Assembly (NCBI GenBank): GCA_021324155.1
Contig: JAJPJQ010000026.1
Span: 1-54,110, forward strand
Origin: Pseudomonadota bacterium
GTDB lineage: Bacteria > Desulfobacterota > Binatia > UBA9968
DNA: 54,110 nt
Reading direction: 5' to 3'
In this document: one piece after another, positions 34,064 through 50,778 of the stretch
Layout: every line of letters begins with the position of its first letter
Numbering within the stretch: the stretch's first letter is position 1
The notes under the pieces: generated by a model
Databases searched by the model: none
Seen by the model: the letters and a program-made list of their open reading frames with translations, nothing else
Told to the model about the DNA's origin: nothing
Translations under genes and position numbers: made by a program

Positions 34064-35029
34064 ATGGCCGCCGGCGCTGAGATTTCTCATTCGTTCCGTA
34101 TTCCTATCCTTCTGCTGATCGCTTTTGTGGCGCATGCCGCCGGCTGCGCGCGCCAGTTTCCGACCACCGAAATCACGACGATCAAAGCGGCGAGTCCCGA
34201 AGACCTGCAGCGGTATCTGGTTTCCCGTAAGCCGGACGTGGCGCAGTTCCGGGCCCGTGGCCCCTTCGCCGTCGTCCAGCACAAAGATCTGCAAATCCCG
34301 GTTTCTTCCGATCTCGTGGTGGAAGCGGATCTTTACCTGTGCGCGGCCGCGCTCAAGGCGCCGCTGGTCGTCATGCTGCACGGCCAGGACAATTCGAAGG
34401 AGGATCACGCGTTTCAGGCGATGCACCTGGCATCGTGGGGCATGCACGGGCTCGCAATTGACCTGCCCAATCGGGGGCCGTGGATCGCCAACGGCTTGAT
34501 GCTCGCCAAATTCGTCGAGGCGGTTCATCGGGCACCGCAGCTCGTCGATATGCGCATCGATCCTGAGAAGATCATTCTCGTCGGACACTCGTTCGGTGCG
34601 ACCGCCGTCGCCGCTGCTCTCGGCGAAGGCGCGCCTGCGCTCGGCGGTGTCCTGCTCGATCCCGCGGGAATCGGCCGGCAATTGCCGCCGCTCCTCAGGA
34701 AGATCGCCGTTCCGGTCATGATCGTGGGAGCGGACGAGGAGATCTGGCCCACGCGCAACCGCGGGCAGTTTTTCCGCTTCATTCCGGCGCGTGTTGGAGA
34801 GATCTCGATACGCGACACGGTGCACGCGGACGCACAGTATCCGAGCCATCAGACGCTGCGCTTCTTCGAGGACCGCCCCGACGACACCGAGGAAGCGCAG
34901 ATCGCCTTCGTCAGCGCGCTTACCGCGTCCGTTTTCAGTATCGCCGCGACCGGCTCGCTGGAGTACGGCTGGAGCAGCTTCGAGAACGGATTCAAGAACG
35001 GAACGTTTTTTAACGCGAGGAGGAAGTAA
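34064..35029 (+). CDS. Alpha/beta-hydrolase, probable lipoprotein
   Basis: A 321-residue alpha/beta hydrolase. A signal sequence ends in a lipobox-like AAGC (Cys28), so the protein is likely membrane-anchored outside the cytoplasm. The oxyanion loop is LVVMLHGQDN (His106-Gly107), the nucleophile elbow GHSFG (Ser176), a probable acid Asp224, and a His near 262 (PSHQTLRFF). Length fits a dienelactone hydrolase/esterase-like enzyme. Its 3' end (FKNGTFFNARRK) resembles the segment before the second methyltransferase-like paralogue, and the next gene starts two bases after its stop, so it heads that operon. Confidence 0.85.
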   Translation: MAAGAEISHSFRIPILLLIAFVAHAAGCARQFPTTEITTIKAASPEDLQRYLVSRKPDVAQFRARGPFAVVQHKDLQIPVSSDLVVEADLYLCAAALKAPLVVMLHGQDNSKEDHAFQAMHLASWGMHGLAIDLPNRGPWIANGLMLAKFVEAVHRAPQLVDMRIDPEKIILVGHSFGATAVAAALGEGAPALGGVLLDPAGIGRQLPPLLRKIAVPVMIVGADEEIWPTRNRGQFFRFIPARVGEISIRDTVHADAQYPSHQTLRFFEDRPDDTEEAQIAFVSALTASVFSIAATGSLEYGWSSFENGFKNGTFFNARRK

Positions 35030-35031
35030 TC

Positions 35032-35934
35032 GTGAGGCATTCAATCTCGACAAAAATATTCACGAGCGAGACGTTGCGCTTGGCCGTCGTACTCGCTGTT
35101 GCCGTACAGGCGCTCGCGCTGGGCGCGGGCTGGGCGCAGGAGCCCGCACCGCCGCGCTTCGACGAGGAGATCGCCAAGCAGCAGAAAATATTTAACAGTC
35201 GCGGCGCCGACGTCCCCGAAGGCTACATCACCGGCCGAACGCTCTTGAGCTATCTGCAGATGCTTCCCGGCTTCTGCGGATCGCTCGGTGCGCTGGGCAG
35301 CTCGGACCGATGGTTGGATATCGGCGCCGGCGCCGGCCAGGCCATTCTGGACTACTACGCGGCCGAAGCCGACTCGACGGGTAAAATGTGCACGGGGTCC
35401 GCCGGCAAAGTGCGCGCGGTTGCGATGTCTATCGAGGACCGCCGGACGGACAAATGGCATCGGCGGGCAGCGAGCCTCGGCGACGACCGCATACGCTATC
35501 TCGCCGGCAAGCGTCTGCGGCAGTACGCGTCCGAGGAGCTGGGAAAATTCCAGATCATTACGGACGTGTTCGGCGGCTTCTCCTATACCGACGACTTGTC
35601 TGGCTTCGTCGAACGGACGCTGCGCTTGCTCGAGACCGGCGGCGTCTTCTACACGCTCGTGCAGAGCGTGCATTTGGAAGACGGCAAAGATAATCCGAAA
35701 ACCGCGTATCTGACCGAGCTGGTCGACGCGTCCGGCCGCGACGACAAAATCTGCGCCTGGCTCAAGCGAACCGCTTGCGTGGAGGTCAGCTGCGAATCGA
35801 AGAGCAACTGGAACGCCCCCACCGAGCTGATCGCCGTCAAGAAGGTTTGCGGCGAGGTCTCCGTTCCGCGCGTGAAGCTGTTGAAGTACGAAGCGGGCGA
35901 CCCTCCCGGCAGGCGTTTCGAATTGGAGCCGTAA
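35032..35934 (+). CDS. Exported SAM-methyltransferase-like protein (tandem paralogue 1)
   Basis: A 300-residue protein starting at GTG behind GAGGAGG. A signal peptide (about residues 1-36, ending GWAQ) precedes a Rossmann-type domain with methyltransferase motif I, RWLDIGAGAGQAILDYYA (residues 93-110). AMSIEDRRTDKW, QIITDVFGGFSYTDDLS and LRLLETGGVFYTLVQ are the later strands. Six Cys (82, 120, 241, 249, 254, 273) are all kept in the two following paralogues, as expected for disulfides in an exported protein. SAM is not normally available outside the cytoplasm, so the real ligand or reaction is unclear. It is not recognised as a named family. Confidence 0.8.
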   Translation: MRHSISTKIFTSETLRLAVVLAVAVQALALGAGWAQEPAPPRFDEEIAKQQKIFNSRGADVPEGYITGRTLLSYLQMLPGFCGSLGALGSSDRWLDIGAGAGQAILDYYAAEADSTGKMCTGSAGKVRAVAMSIEDRRTDKWHRRAASLGDDRIRYLAGKRLRQYASEELGKFQIITDVFGGFSYTDDLSGFVERTLRLLETGGVFYTLVQSVHLEDGKDNPKTAYLTELVDASGRDDKICAWLKRTACVEVSCESKSNWNAPTELIAVKKVCGEVSVPRVKLLKYEAGDPPGRRFELEP

Positions 35935-36006
35935 AAGATGAAAATCCGCTCTCAATTGGCGCCGTATCAACGGGAAGTTTTTCAACGCGAGGAGAGAGTA
36001 GTCGTG

Positions 36007-36906
36007 ATGCGTTCAATACAATCGATGATGAAGAAAATTAAGCTATTTCGCCTGCCCGTCGCGATCGCCATCGCCGCGCAGACGCTTTGTCTGAGCGCGC
36101 CCTCGGCGCAGGAGCCCACGGCGCGCGCCAACGAGGAAATGATCAAGCAGGAAAAAATCTACGGCAGCCGCGGCGCCGAGGTTCCCAAGGGCTACGTCAC
36201 CGACAGGGGGCTCTCGGACTATGCGGAAATTCTTCCCGCCGGGTTCTGCCCCGCGCTCGCGAAGCTCGGCGGCTCGGACCGCTGGCTCGATATCGGCGCC
36301 GGCGAGGGACAGGCGATGCTCGACTACTATGCGCTCGACGACGACACGGCGTCGCAAAAGTGCGGCCGGTCCATCGTCAAGGCGCGCGCCGTCGCGCTGT
36401 CGATCGAGGATCGGCGAACGGAGAAGTGGCGGCAACTGGCGGAGATCTTCGGCGACGATCGCCTGCGCTATCTCTCCGGCCGGCGACTGAAGCAATATTC
36501 GGGTGAGGAACTGGGAAAATTTCAGCTCATTACCGACGTATACGGCGGCTTCTCCTACACCGATGACTTGTCGGGGTTTGTGGAGCGGACGCTGCGTCTG
36601 CTGGAGACCGGCGGTGTCTTCTACACGATGGTACAAAACGTGCATTTGGAAAATGCGAAGGATAAGCCCGGCACCACGTATCAGACGTTGCTGGTGGACG
36701 CGGGCGGGCGCGACGTGAACGTCTGCTCCTGGATGAAGCGCATCGGTTGTGTGAATGTCGGCTGCGACTCGAAGGGCAATTGGGAGGCGCCCACCGAGTT
36801 GATCGAGGTGCGCAAGGTCTGCGGCGACATCGCCGTTCCGCACCTGAAAATGGTGAAGTACGACGCGGGGAATCCTCCCTGGAGGCGATTCCAGTTGGAG
36901 CCGTAG
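36007..36906 (+). CDS. Exported SAM-methyltransferase-like protein (tandem paralogue 2)
   Basis: A 299-residue close paralogue of its neighbour. A signal peptide (residues about 1-35, ending SAPSAQ) is followed by RGAEVPKGYVTDRGLSDY, motif I RWLDIGAGEGQAMLDYYA, ALSIEDRRTEKW and LITDVYGGFSYTDDLS. All six Cys positions are conserved (FCPAL, QKCGR, NVCSWMKRIGC, VGC, KVCGD). An ATG at 35938 is in frame. However, the leader TTTTTCAACGCGAGGAGAG directly mirrors the leader of paralogue 1 and puts the start at GTG 36004 or ATG 36007. The leader has been duplicated with the gene. Function is unknown. Confidence 0.8.
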   Translation: MRSIQSMMKKIKLFRLPVAIAIAAQTLCLSAPSAQEPTARANEEMIKQEKIYGSRGAEVPKGYVTDRGLSDYAEILPAGFCPALAKLGGSDRWLDIGAGEGQAMLDYYALDDDTASQKCGRSIVKARAVALSIEDRRTEKWRQLAEIFGDDRLRYLSGRRLKQYSGEELGKFQLITDVYGGFSYTDDLSGFVERTLRLLETGGVFYTMVQNVHLENAKDKPGTTYQTLLVDAGGRDVNVCSWMKRIGCVNVGCDSKGNWEAPTELIEVRKVCGDIAVPHLKMVKYDAGNPPWRRFQLEP

Positions 36907-36935
36907 CAGGCATGTCTCTGCACGAGAAGGAAGTA

Positions 36936-38576
36936 ATGGCTGTATCCTCGATCGAATCGCCTGTGAACGAATGGCCCTGCCCTTTAGTGCGCGCGGCTGT
37001 TCTGCTTCTCTTCCTCCTGCCGGCGTTTGCGGGAGCCGCGTCGCCGCCGCAGCCCGCTCAACCCCACATCGAAAAGGAAATCGAAAGGCAGGAAAAGATT
37101 TACAACCGCAGGGGCGCCGATGTTCCCCGCGGCTACATCACCAATCGAGGGCTCTCGAAATACACGGAACTTCTTCCTGCCGGTTTCTGCGACGCCCTCG
37201 CGAAGCTCGGCGATTCCGACCGCTGGCTCGATATCGGCGCGGGCGAGGGGCACGCGATAGTGGAATATTTTACGGCGGTCGATGCGGCCAAAAAGTGCGG
37301 CGGGTCGGGCGCGCGAGCCAGCGCGGTCGCGATATCCATAGAAGACCGCCGGACCGACGAATGGAAACAGCTGACCGCGAGCCTCGGCGAGGACCGCATA
37401 CGTTATCTCGCCGGCAAGCGCCTGCGGCAATATTCAGACGACGAGCTGGGGAAATTCCGGCTCATTACCGACGTCTTCGGCGGTTTCACCTATACCGAAG
37501 ACGTATCGCACTACATCGAAAGGGTTCTCGGCCTGCTCAATGTCGGCGGCGTCTTCTACACGCTGATCCCCGGCGTGCACTTGGCCGACGGCAGCGACAG
37601 AGCCGGCAGCCGGTATTTGACCGAGCTGGAAGATGCCGCCGGCCGCACGGAGAATATTTGCTCGTGGCTCAAACGAACGCTTTGCATCGAGGTCACCTGC
37701 GACTCAAAGGGCGGCTGGGATAGGCCGACCGAGCTGATAGAGATTCGCAAAGTTTGCAACGAGACGTCGGTCACGCGCATGAGATCCGTGAACTACGAGG
37801 CCGGATCCCCCCCGCGGCGACACTTCCAATTCGAACGCGCAAGCGCCGCATACGCCGGCGACGACAGCGCGGAACTGAAGCGGACGCGCCAACTTGCCGA
37901 GCAAGGACAGCAGTGGGCGCAGCGGAGGCTCGCCGCGATGTATGAAGCCGGGAAAGGCGTGCCGCAGGATTTCACGGAGGCGGTGAAGTGGTATCGCCTC
38001 GCTGCAGCGCAAGGAAATACCCCGGCGCAGTATAGCCTGGGTCAGGCATATGAAAACGGGAAAGGCGTGCCGCAGGATTATGAGGAGGCGGTGAAGTGGT
38101 ATCGTATCGCGGCCGCGCAGGAAGACGATTGGGCGCAGATGAGATTGGGTTCGATGTATGCGGAAGGGAAGGGCGTGCCGCAGGATTACGAGCAGGCGGC
38201 GAAATGGTATCGCCTCGCGGCGGCGCAAGGAAACGCCGCGGCCCAGTATAGTCTCGGTCGGGAATACGAGAAGGGCCAGGGCGTGCCGCAGGATTATGAG
38301 CAGGCGGCGAAATGGTATCGCCTCGCCGCGGCGCAAGGAAATCCGTCGGCGCAAATGAATCTCGGCGCGATGTATGCGGACGGCACGGGCGTGCCGCGAG
38401 ACCGCGTGCGCGCATACACGTGGCTGACGCTCGCGGCGGCATCGAGCGGCGATTCCGGGGCAGCGGCAGCGAAGAATCGAGATCGAATCGCAGCGCAAAT
38501 GACGGCCGAGCAGATCGACGACGCAAAGGAGATGGCACAGCGCTGCCGGGAGACCAAGCTCAAGAACTGCGACTGA
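36936..38576 (+). CDS. Exported methyltransferase-like domain fused to Sel1 repeats (tandem paralogue 3)
   Basis: A 546-residue protein. Residues about 10-36 form the signal peptide (ending FAGAAS). Then the same domain as paralogues 1 and 2 follows, with DRWLDIGAGEGHAIVEYFTA and all six Cys (FCDAL, KKCGG, NICSWLKRTLC, VTC, KVCNE). From about residue 315, five Sel1-like repeats of 36 residues follow (GKGVPQDYEEAVKWYRIAAA pattern), the middle ones nearly identical. A C-terminal helix ends KLKNCD. Sel1 arrays bind protein partners, so this may be the scaffold of the cluster. ATG 36936 is chosen because GGAAGTAAT before it mirrors the paralogue 1 leader; ATG 36912 is an alternative. Confidence 0.82.
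   Translation: MAVSSIESPVNEWPCPLVRAAVLLLFLLPAFAGAASPPQPAQPHIEKEIERQEKIYNRRGADVPRGYITNRGLSKYTELLPAGFCDALAKLGDSDRWLDIGAGEGHAIVEYFTAVDAAKKCGGSGARASAVAISIEDRRTDEWKQLTASLGEDRIRYLAGKRLRQYSDDELGKFRLITDVFGGFTYTEDVSHYIERVLGLLNVGGVFYTLIPGVHLADGSDRAGSRYLTELEDAAGRTENICSWLKRTLCIEVTCDSKGGWDRPTELIEIRKVCNETSVTRMRSVNYEAGSPPRRHFQFERASAAYAGDDSAELKRTRQLAEQGQQWAQRRLAAMYEAGKGVPQDFTEAVKWYRLAAAQGNTPAQYSLGQAYENGKGVPQDYEEAVKWYRIAAAQEDDWAQMRLGSMYAEGKGVPQDYEQAAKWYRLAAAQGNAAAQYSLGREYEKGQGVPQDYEQAAKWYRLAAAQGNPSAQMNLGAMYADGTGVPRDRVRAYTWLTLAAASSGDSGAAAAKNRDRIAAQMTAEQIDDAKEMAQRCRETKLKNCD
37905..38440 (+). repeat. Tandem 108-bp coding repeats (Sel1 array)
   Basis: Five 108-base units, marked by GCGTGCCGCAGGAT recurring at 108-base intervals from about 37957 (37957, 38065, 38173, 38281), with a diverged last unit. 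They encode the Sel1-like repeats of the gene at 36936. The high DNA identity between units points to recent unit duplication. Confidence 0.85.
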
Positions 38577-38754
38577 GGCCCATCCGCTCGACCGCGCCCA
38601 ATTAATCGCCTCGAAAATTCCTATCCTCCAGGTCTTCGCGCCGCCCGGCTTGTTCAGACTTCTCAATAATCGCGCCATTTCCGATCGCGATTTGCTTACG
38701 GCGGCCCGTTGTGCATAAGATCGCGTTGATGAATTTACAAGAAACGATAGGTTG

Positions 38755-39717
38755 ATGGCGAAACTTTTTCTAAGCGCGTTTCTTCTTCTCCTGCTATCCC
38801 TCGCGAAAGTCGCCGGCGCGGCGGCGCCGACCGCACCGGTGCGCCTCGGCTACTCGGCGCTCACGTTCACCGTCCTGCCGGTGCTCTACGGCCAGGAGGC
38901 GGGAGTCTTCCAGCAGAACGGAATCGATCTCAAGCTGCAGCAGATCCGCGGCGATCTGGCGATCCCGGCGATGCTCAACAACGAGATGGACTATGCGATC
39001 GGGGTGCTGCCGACGGTGTGGGCGGCCGCCGAAGGGATGCCGATCCGCCAGATCGCCGGCGGCCAGATCAAGCCGGCCTTCTCGCTCATCGCGCAGCCCG
39101 AGGTGAATTCGTACGCGGATCTCAAGGGCAAGCTCGTCGGCGTGTCGCGGCTCCGCTCGCTCGCGAGCAACCTGCTGACGGTGATTCTCAAGAAGCACGG
39201 CCTCGCGCCGAACGATGTGCGCATGATCTCGCTGCAGACGACCAACAACGTCTATCTCACCCTCGACACCAAGCAGATCACGGCGGGGATGCTGTCGGTG
39301 CCGCTGGACATCAAGGCGAAGCTCGCCGGCTTCAAGATGCTCGCCAGCGCGGCGGACTATACGAGCGCGTATCAGGGCGGCATCGCGACGACCACGAAAA
39401 AAATCGCCGAGATGCCGGAGGTGACCGAGCGCCTGCTGACCGCCTACGTGCAGAGCCTCCGCGGCTTGAAGGCGAACCGCGAGCCGGCGATCGATCTCAT
39501 CGTAAAACACTTCAAGATCGACCGGCCCCTGGCGGCGGCGTCCTACGAGCAGATCGCGCCCCTGTTTCAGGAGACGCCGATCATTCCGACGGATGTGATC
39601 GAAACGGAGCTTCGCACCTGGACCGAGCTGACGGGTAAAAAGCCCACGGTCTCGGCCGAGCAGACGATGGACATGGCGCCGCTGCAGCGCGTGCTCAAGC
39701 GGCTAGCGCAAAAATAA
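38755..39717 (+). CDS. ABC transporter substrate-binding protein (NMT1/SsuA type)
   Basis: A 320-residue periplasmic binding protein. A signal peptide (LFLSAFLLLLLSLAKVAGAA) precedes the NMT1/THI5-like fold: VRLGYSALTFTVLPVLYGQE, GVFQQNGIDLKLQQIRGD, and DLKGKLVGVSRLRSLASNL. The family captures sulfonates, taurine, thiamine precursors or aromatic acids for ABC importers. No ATPase or permease gene is nearby. It is followed 19 bases later by a two-subunit ThDP enzyme, which suggests the bound ligand is a substrate for that pathway (inference). The start could equally be the TTG one codon upstream. Confidence 0.9.
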   Translation: MAKLFLSAFLLLLLSLAKVAGAAAPTAPVRLGYSALTFTVLPVLYGQEAGVFQQNGIDLKLQQIRGDLAIPAMLNNEMDYAIGVLPTVWAAAEGMPIRQIAGGQIKPAFSLIAQPEVNSYADLKGKLVGVSRLRSLASNLLTVILKKHGLAPNDVRMISLQTTNNVYLTLDTKQITAGMLSVPLDIKAKLAGFKMLASAADYTSAYQGGIATTTKKIAEMPEVTERLLTAYVQSLRGLKANREPAIDLIVKHFKIDRPLAAASYEQIAPLFQETPIIPTDVIETELRTWTELTGKKPTVSAEQTMDMAPLQRVLKRLAQK

Positions 39718-39736: not shown

Positions 39737-40282
39737 ATGCCGGAAGAAGTACAACGCGGCGTCGCGATGCAATACAGCATGAAGAATTCGCGCATCATCG
39801 TCGACGCGCTCAAGGCCGCGGGCATCGACTTCGTCGCCACGCTGCCGGACTCGTTCAACACGCAGGTGCACAAGCTGATTCGGGACGATCCCGCTTTCAA
39901 ATGGGTGGTCGCGACGCGCGAGGACGAGGCGATGGCGATCGCCGGCGGGGCGTTTCTCGGGGGCAAGAAGCCGTGCGTCATCATGGAGGCGTCGGGCTAC
40001 GGCAACTGCGCGGGCTATCTCGCGCGCATCGCCATCGTGCATCATATTCCGCTATTGATTCTGTCGTCGCACGTGCCGGCGCTCGGCGAGATGTATTATC
40101 ACCACTCCGAGACGCGCTATCTCGCCGAGCCGGTGCTGAAAGGCTGCGGCATCCCGTACTGCGCGCTCATGCGCATCGAGGATGCCGACACGATCATCCG
40201 CGAGGCGCAGCTCACCGTCGAGGGGCAGAAAGTGCCGGTCGCGATCATGATTCCGCGCCACATCTATTACGAGGGAAGGTAA
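39737..40282 (+). CDS. ThDP-dependent decarboxylase, alpha (Pyr-domain) subunit, sulfopyruvate/phosphonopyruvate decarboxylase-like
   Basis: A 181-residue protein equal to the N-terminal ThDP-binding domain of decarboxylases, as in the split ComD-type sulfopyruvate decarboxylases. ALKAAGIDFVATLPDSFNTQ and VVATREDEAMAIAGGAFLGG supply the catalytic Glu. CVIMEASGYGNCAGYLARIA and PLLILSSHVPALGEMYYHHS complete the fold. AGGAGGG precedes the ATG. The beta subunit starts one base after the stop. The substrate (a 3-sulfo-, phosphono- or aryl-pyruvate) is inferred from the split architecture. Confidence 0.87.
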   Translation: MPEEVQRGVAMQYSMKNSRIIVDALKAAGIDFVATLPDSFNTQVHKLIRDDPAFKWVVATREDEAMAIAGGAFLGGKKPCVIMEASGYGNCAGYLARIAIVHHIPLLILSSHVPALGEMYYHHSETRYLAEPVLKGCGIPYCALMRIEDADTIIREAQLTVEGQKVPVAIMIPRHIYYEGR

Positions 40283-40283
40283 G

Positions 40284-40907
40284 ATGAAACGCTCCGAAGT
40301 CGTCAATATTTTCGCCAAGAAAAGAACCGAGGAAATCGTCCTCACCAACATCGCGCTGGTGTCGCGGCAGATCTACGCAACGTGCCACAACGACATGACG
40401 CTTTACCGCATCCAGATGGGCTACCCGCTGCCGATGGGCATCGGCCTCGCGCTCGCGCTGCCGCAGCGCCGGGTGATCGTGCTCGACGGCGACGGCTCGC
40501 TGCTCATGGGGCTCGGCGCGCTCACGACCGCCGCCAACGAGAACCCCAAAAATCTGGGGCTGATCGTCTTCGATAATGAGTGCTACGACAATCCCGGCGG
40601 GCTGCCCTCGGCGACCGCCGGCAAGGCCGATCTCGCCGCCATCGCGCGCGCATCCGGCGTCGCGAACAGCGTGACATCCTCGACCGTCGCAGAGTTCGAA
40701 GCCGCGCTCGACGGCGCGCTCGCCAAGCAGGAGCTCTTCTGCATCATCGCCAAAGTCGAGCGCACCGCGCCGGAGGAGGAGAAGATTCCGACGCTGCCCT
40801 TCGACTTGACGGAGAACACCTATATGTTTCTCCGCGCGCTCACGGACGCCGGGCTTATCAAGGGATGGCGCGAAGGCTTCAGCCGCCCGCTGCGTACGAC
40901 GAAATAA
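40284..40907 (+). CDS. ThDP-dependent decarboxylase, beta (PP-domain) subunit
   Basis: A 207-residue partner subunit that binds the ThDP diphosphate and Mg2+. The motif GDGS...N is VIVLDGDGSLLMGLGALTT, then NLGLIVFDNECYDN. YRIQMGYPLPMGIGLALALP precedes it, as in ComE and related enzymes. LFCIIAKVERTAPEEEKIPT follows, also seen in sulfopyruvate decarboxylase beta chains. One base separates it from the alpha gene, so expression is coupled. About 170 bases of non-coding sequence follow, with no clear gene. Confidence 0.88.
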   Translation: MKRSEVVNIFAKKRTEEIVLTNIALVSRQIYATCHNDMTLYRIQMGYPLPMGIGLALALPQRRVIVLDGDGSLLMGLGALTTAANENPKNLGLIVFDNECYDNPGGLPSATAGKADLAAIARASGVANSVTSSTVAEFEAALDGALAKQELFCIIAKVERTAPEEEKIPTLPFDLTENTYMFLRALTDAGLIKGWREGFSRPLRTTK

Positions 40908-41919: not shown

Positions 41920-42912
41920 TTAAGCTTTTGCGATCAAGACCGAATCGGGATCGATAGAAAGCGGACTCGAACGGGAAGGCCCTTCGATGCGTGAAAATCC
42001 GGATTGGCGCAGCCAGCCCGTGATTTCGTCGAGCGTGTAGCAGCGGCCCCGGGGAGTGTGCAGAAGCAAACACACGGAAAAAAGGGCGGCCCACTCGGGA
42101 GCGGTGCGGTCGCGGCTCATGAACACGTCGCGCAGAATCAGTTGCCCTTCAGGGTTCAGGCAGTTGCGGGCTTTTCGCAGCAACGAACGGTTCTCATCGG
42201 CGCTGTGCGAGTGAAGAACATTCGATAGGAAAACTGCATCGAATCCCCGCGGCAGCCGCCCGCGCCGGAAATCCACGCCGATAACCCGCATCCTTTTCCC
42301 CAGCTTGGCGGCGCCGATGGCGCGGCGCGCGAGCGGCGCGATGCTGGGATGCTCGACGATGGTCGCCCGCAGCCGCGGATAGCGGCGGCAGAAGGCGATC
42401 GCAAAACCGCCCAGTCCGCCGCCGATATCGAGCAGCGTTTCGGCGCGCTTCAGCGGCAGCTTGGCGATCAGATGCGGGGCGATCGCCCGTGCGTCGATCT
42501 GCAGATCGCGCAGCAGCCGGTAGGCTTTTTTAGGGTCCGAGAAAAAGGGTCTCTGGGTACGGGGCCGCGCGCCGGTGCGGAGCGCGGCCGCGAGCCCGCC
42601 CCAGACCTGCCTGGCTTCGTAGTTGCGCAATAGAAAAGCCGCCGCCTTCGTGCGGAGGTGATGGGCCGCAAGCCCGCTGTTAGCGTATTTTCTTCCGCGC
42701 TTGCGCAGCAGGCCCATGGCGCAGAGCGCGTTCAAGAAAATTTCCCATGCTTGCGGATCGCCGCCGAAATGAGCGGCGAAGGCCGCGCGGCTCCTTGCCC
42801 TTTTTCCCATCCACGCGAATAAATCGAGCTCGTCCGCGGTGATGAGAATCGCCGAGCGCCAGTAGCCGCTCTCGGCGCGGAGACGTTCGAGCCCCGATCG
42901 CTTGCTGCGCAT
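41920..42912 (-). CDS. Class I SAM-dependent O-methyltransferase-like protein
   Basis: A 330-residue methyltransferase with an N-terminal helical dimerisation/winged-helix domain (residues 15-100, AWEIFLNALCAMGLLRKRGR). The catalytic Rossmann domain has motif I TLLDIGGGLGGFAIAFCRRY, then IVEHPSIAPLARRAIGAA, RGFDAVFLSNVLHSHSADEN and LNPEGQLILRDVFMSRDRTA. This is the layout of acetylserotonin/hydroxyneurosporene O-methyltransferases. Convergent with the tautomerase gene. The substrate is unknown. Confidence 0.9.
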   Translation of the reverse strand: MRSKRSGLERLRAESGYWRSAILITADELDLFAWMGKRARSRAAFAAHFGGDPQAWEIFLNALCAMGLLRKRGRKYANSGLAAHHLRTKAAAFLLRNYEARQVWGGLAAALRTGARPRTQRPFFSDPKKAYRLLRDLQIDARAIAPHLIAKLPLKRAETLLDIGGGLGGFAIAFCRRYPRLRATIVEHPSIAPLARRAIGAAKLGKRMRVIGVDFRRGRLPRGFDAVFLSNVLHSHSADENRSLLRKARNCLNPEGQLILRDVFMSRDRTAPEWAALFSVCLLLHTPRGRCYTLDEITGWLRQSGFSRIEGPSRSSPLSIDPDSVLIAKA

Positions 42913-49059: not shown

Positions 49060-49167
49060 GCATCGACGATCGTCGGCCAGCCGGGGTTCGTATTGGAGCT
49101 TTACGCAAAAATTTGGTAAGCCGTCCATTTTATGCGCCGAGATTTTCGCAGAAGTCCCAAGCGGACG

Positions 49168-50778
49168 ATGATTGCGCAGTTTAGAACCGCCGTGGACGCT
49201 CTTGTAGGACTCTACGAATTGGGCATCTTTCTGCCCGGATATTTCCGCAAGACACTCAGCGTCGCCGAAGCGAAGCTGGAGATTCAGAGCTATCTCGCAT
49301 GCCGGAACGAGACGTTTCTCGAGCTCGTGCGCAGCCGCATCTACGCCGCGCCGGGGAATCCGTACCTGCGGCTCTTGCGCCGGGCCGACTGCGACTTTTC
49401 CGATTTCCGGTCGCATGTGCTCAACCACGGCCTCGAGGCAACGCTCGAGCGGCTCGCACGCGAGGGGGTTTACCTCACATCGGACGAGTTCAAGGGGAAG
49501 AGAGAAGTCATTCGCGGCGTGGAGTCGTTTCGCGTCTCGCCGGCGGCGTTTCTACGCCCCGACGATCGGCCGGGATTTTTCGCGCAGAGCAGCGGGAGTA
49601 GGGGCTCGCCGACGCGCACCCGCGTCGCTTTCGATTGGCATCTCCTTCGCGCCGCGCCTATCGGCGTGTTTTTGCATGCGCACGGTTTGTATTCTTCCGC
49701 ATACGCTTATTACGACTCGGTGCTGTCGTTGACGGGCGGCGTCCAGACTATGCTCGCCTGCCATCATGTGGGGATGCCCATCGAGCGCTGGTTCGCCCGC
49801 GAGACGCCGGTTCGCGGGGCGCTGCAGCGATACCGGCATCGACTGACCAACTCTATGACGATCGCCGCCGCGCGTTGGTTCGGCCACGGTCTGCCGCGCC
49901 CCGAGCCTCTCGATCCCACGGATGTTGGGCCGGTTCTTCGCTGGGCGCTGGAGCAGCGGCGGCGCGGCCGCGTCGTTTGCATCGATACGGTCGCGAACAA
50001 TGCGGTGCGCATCGCTGCCGCGGCCTCAGCGGCGGGCGAGTCGCTCGAAGACGTAAAATTCTTCGTTCACGGCGAGCCCATGACCGATGCGAAACGGGAT
50101 GTGATCGAGCGCGCGAGCGCAAGCTATGCTGTGCGCTACTCCTCCGAGCCAAGTTTTCAGCTCGGCGTAGGCTGCGCCCGCCCTGCCTACACCGACGAGG
50201 TTCACGTGAACCAGCACCTCTACGCCGTAATCCAGCAGGGCTTCCCGCTCGCCGATCCTTATGCTCCGAGCGAAGCGCTGCTCTTCACCACACTTCACCC
50301 GCTCGCGCCGCAGCTGCTGCTTAACACGCAGAACGGCGACTACGGCGCGCTCGAACAGCGAAACTGCGGCTGCGCGCTCGAAGAGACCGGTCTCGCGCTG
50401 CACCTTTACGGTATCCGGAGCTTCGAGAAATTCACCGGCCAAGGAATGAATTATTATTTCGGCGACCTGCTCGAGCTGATCGAAAAGAAGCTGCCGGCCG
50501 AGTTCGGCGGCGGCCCGGGCGATTATCAGCTCACCGAAGAGGAAGAAGCGGGCCGGACTTGCCTCACGCTCAAAGTGGATCCGAGCATCGCGGCCTTGGA
50601 TGAGGACAAGGTCATGGCCCGGCTGCGGGCCGAGCTCGGCAGCGGCTCGTGGGGTAAGGAGTTCCAGGCGCGCGTCTGGGAGCAGGCGGGGGCGCTGAAA
50701 ATCAGGCGGACTAAGCCTGAGTCGAATGCGCGGGGAAAGATCCTTCCGCTCCAAGTGCAGAATAAAGCTGCCCGCTAG
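49168..50778 (+). CDS. LuxE/PaaK-like AMP-dependent acyl-activating protein
   Basis: A 536-residue protein distantly related to acyl-protein synthetase (LuxE) and phenylacetate-CoA ligase. The phosphate-binding loop is FAQSSGSRGSPTRT (residues 138-151), similar to the TSGTTGKP of the ANL superfamily. DVKFFVHGEPMTDAKRDVIE and LHLYGIRSFEKFTGQGMNYY are other candidate domain segments. The N-terminal helical domain (LPGYFRKTLSVAEAKLEI) is shared with the decayed fragment at 30166. Expected chemistry is adenylation of a carboxylic acid; the acyl acceptor is unknown. ATG 49168 is chosen; an earlier ATG at 49132 is possible. Direct repeats of 36 bp flank it, suggesting insertion. Confidence 0.78.
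   Translation: MIAQFRTAVDALVGLYELGIFLPGYFRKTLSVAEAKLEIQSYLACRNETFLELVRSRIYAAPGNPYLRLLRRADCDFSDFRSHVLNHGLEATLERLAREGVYLTSDEFKGKREVIRGVESFRVSPAAFLRPDDRPGFFAQSSGSRGSPTRTRVAFDWHLLRAAPIGVFLHAHGLYSSAYAYYDSVLSLTGGVQTMLACHHVGMPIERWFARETPVRGALQRYRHRLTNSMTIAAARWFGHGLPRPEPLDPTDVGPVLRWALEQRRRGRVVCIDTVANNAVRIAAAASAAGESLEDVKFFVHGEPMTDAKRDVIERASASYAVRYSSEPSFQLGVGCARPAYTDEVHVNQHLYAVIQQGFPLADPYAPSEALLFTTLHPLAPQLLLNTQNGDYGALEQRNCGCALEETGLALHLYGIRSFEKFTGQGMNYYFGDLLELIEKKLPAEFGGGPGDYQLTEEEEAGRTCLTLKVDPSIAALDEDKVMARLRAELGSGSWGKEFQARVWEQAGALKIRRTKPESNARGKILPLQVQNKAAR

Follow-up and report, generated by a model that had tools for sequence, protein, structure and literature searches.

The 54,110-nucleotide contig JAJPJQ010000026.1 (assembly GCA_021324155.1, listed as a Pseudomonadota bacterium and placed by GTDB in the Binatia), hereafter the window, carries a lipoprotein hydrolase gene followed by three genes for exported proteins with a predicted methyltransferase fold. 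Comparison across genomes showed that the conserved unit at this locus is the hydrolase plus one methyltransferase-like gene, not the three-gene run. In a betaproteobacterial family the pair is inherited together, mostly as neighbouring genes, and the two genes also neighbour each other in part of the family, labelled Binatia, to which the window belongs. The first-pass annotation had described three same-strand open reading frames (ORFs) sharing a motif I of the S-adenosylmethionine (SAM) methyltransferase type and six cysteines, with a lipoprotein hydrolase at the head of the run, and the ORF list and alignment agreed with it. The ORFs lie on the forward strand at 35032-35934, 35938-36906 and 36747-38576, and the motif WLDIGAGxG and the six cysteines are invariant in the mature parts of all three products. 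Identity to protein 1 is 64% for protein 2 and 57% for protein 3, and when the window genome was queried with protein 2 only these three places matched at E<=0.01. The hydrolase gene (34064-35029, forward strand) stands directly upstream, ending 2 nt before gene 1.

The hydrolase and one methyltransferase-like gene are inherited together

Family loci were collected in one genome-contig scan with nine members as queries, which gave 56 loci, every one in a record marked as a metagenome-assembled genome (MAG); L022-L025, from the window's own lineage, were later excluded as duplicates of L016-L018. The record titles of 46 of the other 52 loci read Betaproteobacteria, Burkholderiales or beta proteobacterium. 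For the remaining six (L038, L041, L042, L044, L051 and L069) the MAG records are headed Bordetella parapertussis, Klebsiella pneumoniae or Chitinophaga pinensis; these titles look wrong for a betaproteobacterial family sequence and were taken as MAG labels, not isolates. A hidden Markov model search of the window, L016-L019 and L026-L077 returned 64 family ORFs, and 61 were aligned after three partial ones had been dropped. Since members recur in another phylum, with 42-57% identity to protein 2 and most of them with a signal, the observation made on three proteins is not a matter of chance.

A hydrolase ORF, taken from stop to stop, was found on the same strand and at most 400 nt upstream of 31 of the 64 family ORFs, while L040, L051, L060, L063 and L077 have the hydrolase alongside the family gene in another orientation. 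Co-occurrence was counted in the 74 genomes of the taxonomic family of genome G446, which includes L026, L029, L047 and L058 (titled Betaproteobacteria or Burkholderiales), calling the methyltransferase-like partner at E<=1e-8 and the hydrolase at E<=1e-60. Both genes were present in 39 genomes, the partner only in 4, the hydrolase only in none and neither in 31. As many as 36 of the 40 hydrolase copies have the partner no more than 1 kb away (the hydrolase is directly upstream in the same orientation in 29, divergent in 6 and convergent in 1), and the other four share a contig with it at a distance of 6-17 kb. Distances between hydrolases also correlated with those between their partners (r=0.76 for 34 pairs, against 0.24 for the best of 2000 shuffles). 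Among 58 relatives of the window, its own genome included, five carry the hydrolase; four of these have the partner, and in the fifth (G021) the hydrolase lies 59 bases from a contig end. Recurrence of the cluster in relatives, a check proposed at the outset, was seen for the hydrolase linkage, whereas the three-gene run turned out to be a local variant. A constant third partner was considered and rejected, as the neighbours vary from locus to locus; by eye, nine inspected ones look like housekeeping or transport genes (for example RNase D, elongation factor P, the major facilitator superfamily plus UspA, LOG and amidase).

The exported family is rare outside the window's family and the betaproteobacterial family of G446. 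In a draw of 395 genomes from the window's phylum it was present in the window genome only, and in a draw of 369 genomes from the class around G446 only in the central genome, G446 itself. Within the order of G446 it was found in 9 of 250 genomes, seven of them in G446's family list, and among the 58 window relatives in six, window included, all within the window's family. Short family remnants were noted at L021:8349-8696 (-), L017:5531-5692 (+) and L030:3791-4357 (+), some adjoining intact copies, suggesting repeated gain and decay. An origin from viruses or plasmids was rejected: relatives were absent from the viral contig, plasmid and phage collections searched, and a viral structure library returned generic methyltransferase-type folds only. 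In PHROGs, proteins 1 and 2 had no match and protein 3 matched in its Sel1 region only.

Predicted folds, cofactor pocket and export of the two proteins

The hydrolase (P0004) is, as judged from its sequence and model, a lipid-anchored esterase of PETase/cutinase fold. Its N-terminus reads ...AHAAGC|AR, a lipobox is found in most of its homologues and the sequence matches Abhydrolase_6 at 2.5e-9. The model reached a predicted local distance difference test (pLDDT) score of 90.0, and its best fold match was GlacPETase (8x6v; Z 26.4, root-mean-square deviation 2.6 over 245 residues), with 13-18% identity among the matches listed; the top profile match was 9pm1 (2.4e-11). In an alignment of 35 rows, a candidate Ser156/Asp204/His234 triad, assigned by motif, was invariant in all 35. 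A conserved C-terminal disulfide is a trait of the cutinase type, and no cysteine occupied an invariant or near-invariant column of this alignment.

The exported family has, by prediction, the seven-stranded, Rossmann-like fold of class I methyltransferases; the first-pass annotation had supposed a SAM-type fold. The AlphaFold2 model of protein 2, built from residue Q28 onward, had a pLDDT of 91.9 and a predicted template modelling (pTM) score of 0.91. Foldseek returned 445 PDB matches at E<=1e-3, and the 50 listed are methyltransferases and other SAM-fold enzymes. In the VIA comparison the best Z value, 13.2, was tied over toxoflavin, halide, thiopurine and phosphoethanolamine methyltransferases. 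Assignment of a substrate from the fold was rejected, and none can be read from it, because the best Z is shared by methyltransferases of many substrates. In sequence searches, 26 of the 61 members matched Pfam at E<=0.1, all under the gathering cut-off, and NCBIfam held no relevant model for family members. A PDB search for sequence relatives gave none with a single sequence and one chance match (E 0.95) with the profile. An hhalign comparison with the window's own O-methyltransferase (41920-42912) aligned motif I in the expected register at a probability of 1.6% and was not used as evidence.

Class I methyltransferases hold SAM through motif I, motif IV and, for the ribose, an acidic residue after beta2. 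The motif I glycines, E100/D101 after beta2 and the motif IV residue D143 are kept in all 61 aligned copies, the full invariant set being D61, G63, A64, G65, E100, D101, D143, G146, G147, F148 and Y150 (model numbering). The SAM pocket thus appears intact by sequence and predicted fold. The cysteines behaved differently from what had first been claimed: all six are strictly kept in the three window proteins and their lineage, whereas family-wide only the four C-terminal ones are universal (61, 60, 60 and 59 of 61 rows, the remainder being gaps). A search for homologues with the same set found the two upstream cysteines together in 9 of 9 window-lineage rows versus none of the 52 others. In the model the universal cysteines are residues 206, 214, 219 and 238, and the DSSP string puts C206 in alphaE, C214 just before beta6, C219 in mid-beta6 and C238 just after beta7.

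Export was evaluated with a home-made rule that asks for a positive n-region, an uncharged hydrophobic core of 12 residues and a small-x-small site. The signal peptides reported for the three window proteins recur in the family, with a Sec-like N-terminal signal in 54 of the 61 homologues, and the outcome of an entirely cytoplasmic family did not occur. The rule missed L019, L040, L043, L054, L055, L061 and L062, some of which have a hydrophobic start by eye. As a control, 2 of the 24 Methyltransf_23 (PF13489) matches of the same genome, L122 and L123, passed it. By eye, the signal of L122 resembles that of a genuine lipoprotein, and the match in L123 resembles an internal start. Export is thus unusual, although not unique, among the methyltransferases of this genome. 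The L122 protein (L122:1438-2058 (-), corresponding to G000:C16:94591-95211 (-)) is a predicted lipoprotein (LAGC) with a UbiE-like domain (Methyltransf_31, 6.6e-19). Its homologues occur in 29 of 56 relatives at E<=1e-30, own genome included, and when 10 loci were searched by motif, five copies turned up, that of the window genome among them, each with a lipobox-like cysteine.

Duplication of the unit, possible transfer and the Sel1 partner

Exported protein 1 (P0001) occupies 35032-35934 on the forward strand with a probable GTG start at 35032, and its Shine-Dalgarno sequence AGGAGG (35018-35023, forward strand) lies within the end of the hydrolase gene, 8 nt before this start. Protein 2 (P0002; 36007-36906, forward strand) probably starts at ATG 36007, and its translation used here begins at the downstream in-frame ATG 36028; protein 3 (P0003; 36936-38576, forward strand) was translated from its probable ATG start at 36936. 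Just before gene 2, positions 35969-36003 of the forward strand hold a relic of the hydrolase gene end, 29/35 identical to 34997-35031 (score 40 versus 21 for the best of 300 shuffles). The second gene of L016 is likewise preceded by a 40-nt relic (34/40). No hydrolase relic was detected before gene 3 (score 21; shuffles up to 26). These relics indicate that at least gene 2 and the second gene of L016 arose when the whole unit was duplicated and a hydrolase copy was then lost. On L018 (G017:C96) the hydrolase-methyltransferase unit occurs twice in complete form, and a Sel1 protein gene comes after one of the two copies.

In the tree, the nine window-lineage rows formed one group (100/99) beside L026. 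The three window genes did not form a group of their own, and protein 3 grouped (95/75) with the L017 fusion protein. The nearest betaproteobacterial relative of the hydrolase is also L026. As both proteins share this nearest relative, their sequences are consistent with the complete unit having moved from one phylum to another.

The five Sel1 repeats attributed to the third protein were recovered with ample margin (E 6.4e-57; 188.4 bits against a Pfam cut-off of 30.7), and the repeat region spans 37839-38573 on the forward strand. This fusion is present in window protein 3, but it is a local variant, found in 2 of the 4 lineage loci: Sel1 is fused in L017 and the window, whereas L016 and L018 encode it separately, as a protein whose start, by eye, resembles a signal. 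Identity to the L016 Sel1 protein was 91% for L017, 78% for L018 and 70% for the window. Sel1 is thus an optional partner that apparently shares the compartment. At L016:4347-5189 (-), the sequence before the Sel1 protein resembles, by eye, part of the adjacent glutathione-transferase-like gene (GFPNVAAHF..MQ.RPS.KK), and a chimeric start of the L016 Sel1 protein is possible.

Elsewhere in the window, an NMT1-like binding protein (38752-39717) precedes a thiamine-pyrophosphate enzyme whose N- and C-terminal halves are two genes (39737-40907, forward strand), and a 548-amino-acid ORF at 49132-50778 (forward strand) had no Pfam match at E<=1e-5.

Proposed function and alternative explanations

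We propose, with confidence that is evenly balanced, that the two proteins form a cell-envelope module in which a lipid-anchored esterase and a Sec-type exported SAM-fold protein, with inferred disulfides and S-adenosyl binding, share a substrate. The envelope-module reading alone is held firmly, methyl transfer outside the cytoplasm is plausible from sequence and model, and the methylation step is adopted with clear reserve. The esterase would cleave an ester that is part of the envelope or comes from outside; its exported partner would bind an S-adenosyl-type ligand and act on the substrate or product of the esterase, being most simply a periplasmic methyltransferase. Its four cysteines would make two disulfides that, under the oxidising conditions of the periplasm, staple alphaE to beta6-beta7. 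The window's lineage would have duplicated the unit and lost one hydrolase copy, gained a third cysteine pair and recruited a secreted Sel1 protein, fused in two of the four loci.

Several observations weigh against this proposal. Foldseek gave modest TM-scores (by query, 0.36-0.48 for the 50 matches listed), model residues beyond 239 are barely covered by the VIA fold matches, and the best Pfam score, that of member 1 with Methyltransf_23, is 22.1 bits against a gathering cut-off of 27. The likely disulfides, C206-C219 and C214-C238, were paired from secondary-structure order only: the beta6-beta7 hairpin puts C214 opposite C238, which leaves C206-C219 as the other pair. In the open-licence literature nothing was found that establishes SAM outside the cytoplasm. 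Regarding the linkage, the Fisher value of 7.9e-17 for the 74 genomes overstates independence, the genomes being related, and the linkage may partly reflect joint transfer. The partner occurs without the hydrolase in 4 of 43 genomes, two of these being fragment matches (G1088 and G1120), and G004 and G016 of the window's family have the partner and, at the same threshold, no hydrolase; the partner in G016 is a fragment only and that in G004 lies at contig ends. Finally, not every partner copy is paired: several partner matches occur in 15 of 43 genomes, a second hydrolase in only 1 of 39.

The alternative that fares best, and which we regard as quite possible, keeps the fold and not the reaction: the exported protein would bind another nucleoside-like ligand, or have a non-catalytic role beside the lipoprotein esterase, as its partner, chaperone or regulator. 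We know of no supply of SAM to the periplasm, the sequences are distant from curated methyltransferase families, and co-inheritance with the hydrolase fits an obligate partner; a mere scaffold, on the other hand, would not need the motif I, beta2 and motif IV residues that are unchanged over 61 rows. Tentatively, and from sequence and model, the partner may instead be a true extracytoplasmic SAM-dependent methyltransferase using outside SAM and cooperating with a lipid-anchored polyester-type esterase, for example in making or breaking methyl esters or in capping released acids.

That the four universal cysteines bind a metal such as zinc instead of forming two disulfides seems unlikely. Their closeness in sequence would allow a Cys4 site, but the protein looks exported, and outside the cytoplasm such cysteines are usually oxidised; the additional pair of the window lineage also agrees with a disulfide, although on the tree it counts as a single event. 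It is improbable that joint transfer or inherited gene order explains the hydrolase linkage with no common task: the kinship of the 74 genomes, the grouping of copies from two phyla, which suggests unit transfer, and the partner-only genomes agree with it, but the pair stays together in many surroundings and three relative orientations, and non-adjacent hydrolases still occur in genomes with the partner. An uncleaved anchor with a cytoplasmic methyltransferase domain and an ordinary SAM supply is very improbable, since, even though the signal calls depend on a home-made rule that 7 of 61 homologues failed, the positive n-regions and small-x-small sites form the Sec export pattern and the cysteine conservation fits an outside location.

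To our knowledge, SAM chemistry is taken as confined to the cytoplasm. A well-bounded family with an apparently unbroken pocket, a Sec-type signal, structural cysteines and a near-constant esterase partner offers a concrete test of this view, and the pairing gives a group of PETase-fold lipoproteins a named partner. Should the envelope methyltransferase be real, it would, along with the lipoprotein methyltransferase family of this lineage, point to general SAM-based chemistry in the bacterial envelope; should the pocket bind something else, the family would show one of the commonest enzyme folds put to a new use.

Comparison with known systems

Within the open-licence literature searched, the secreted pair of an esterase and a methyltransferase-fold protein is undescribed; full-text searches gave nothing on a hydrolase with a methyltransferase-like partner, by which absence from print is not shown, and no match on periplasmic or exported methyltransferases with a signal peptide or on extracellular SAM. 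In the parts of the Binatota paper that were available, the main text does not use polyester, cutinase or esterase (PMC8262859). The closest precedent is the Anaplasma O-methyltransferase APH_0584, for which periplasmic methylation was suggested from a Phobius prediction; in the sections available it is reported without a signal peptide, unlike the window family, and no esterase partner is mentioned, unlike the window pair (PMC4636158).

The exported family resembles class I SAM-dependent methyltransferases in its predicted fold (Z up to 13.2), motif I DxGxG, acid after beta2 and motif IV Asp. It differs from them in being exported, in its four universal C-terminal cysteines, in Pfam scores below the cut-off and in having no fitting NCBIfam model and no convincing PDB sequence relative. 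The hydrolase is similar to PETases, bacterial cutinases and lipases of the platelet-activating factor acetylhydrolase type in fold (Z 26.4) and in its invariant candidate Ser-Asp-His, and differs by its predicted lipid anchor, by conserved columns free of cysteine and by its coupling to a methyltransferase-fold partner. Protein 3, with five Sel1 repeats, resembles Sel1-repeat proteins, which here are fused to or beside an exported methyltransferase-like gene at four loci of the window's lineage. The L122 lipoprotein methyltransferase is, by its sequence, also an exported class I enzyme; it has no significant similarity to the three-gene family (BLASTP E 0.056) and is far commoner among the relatives.

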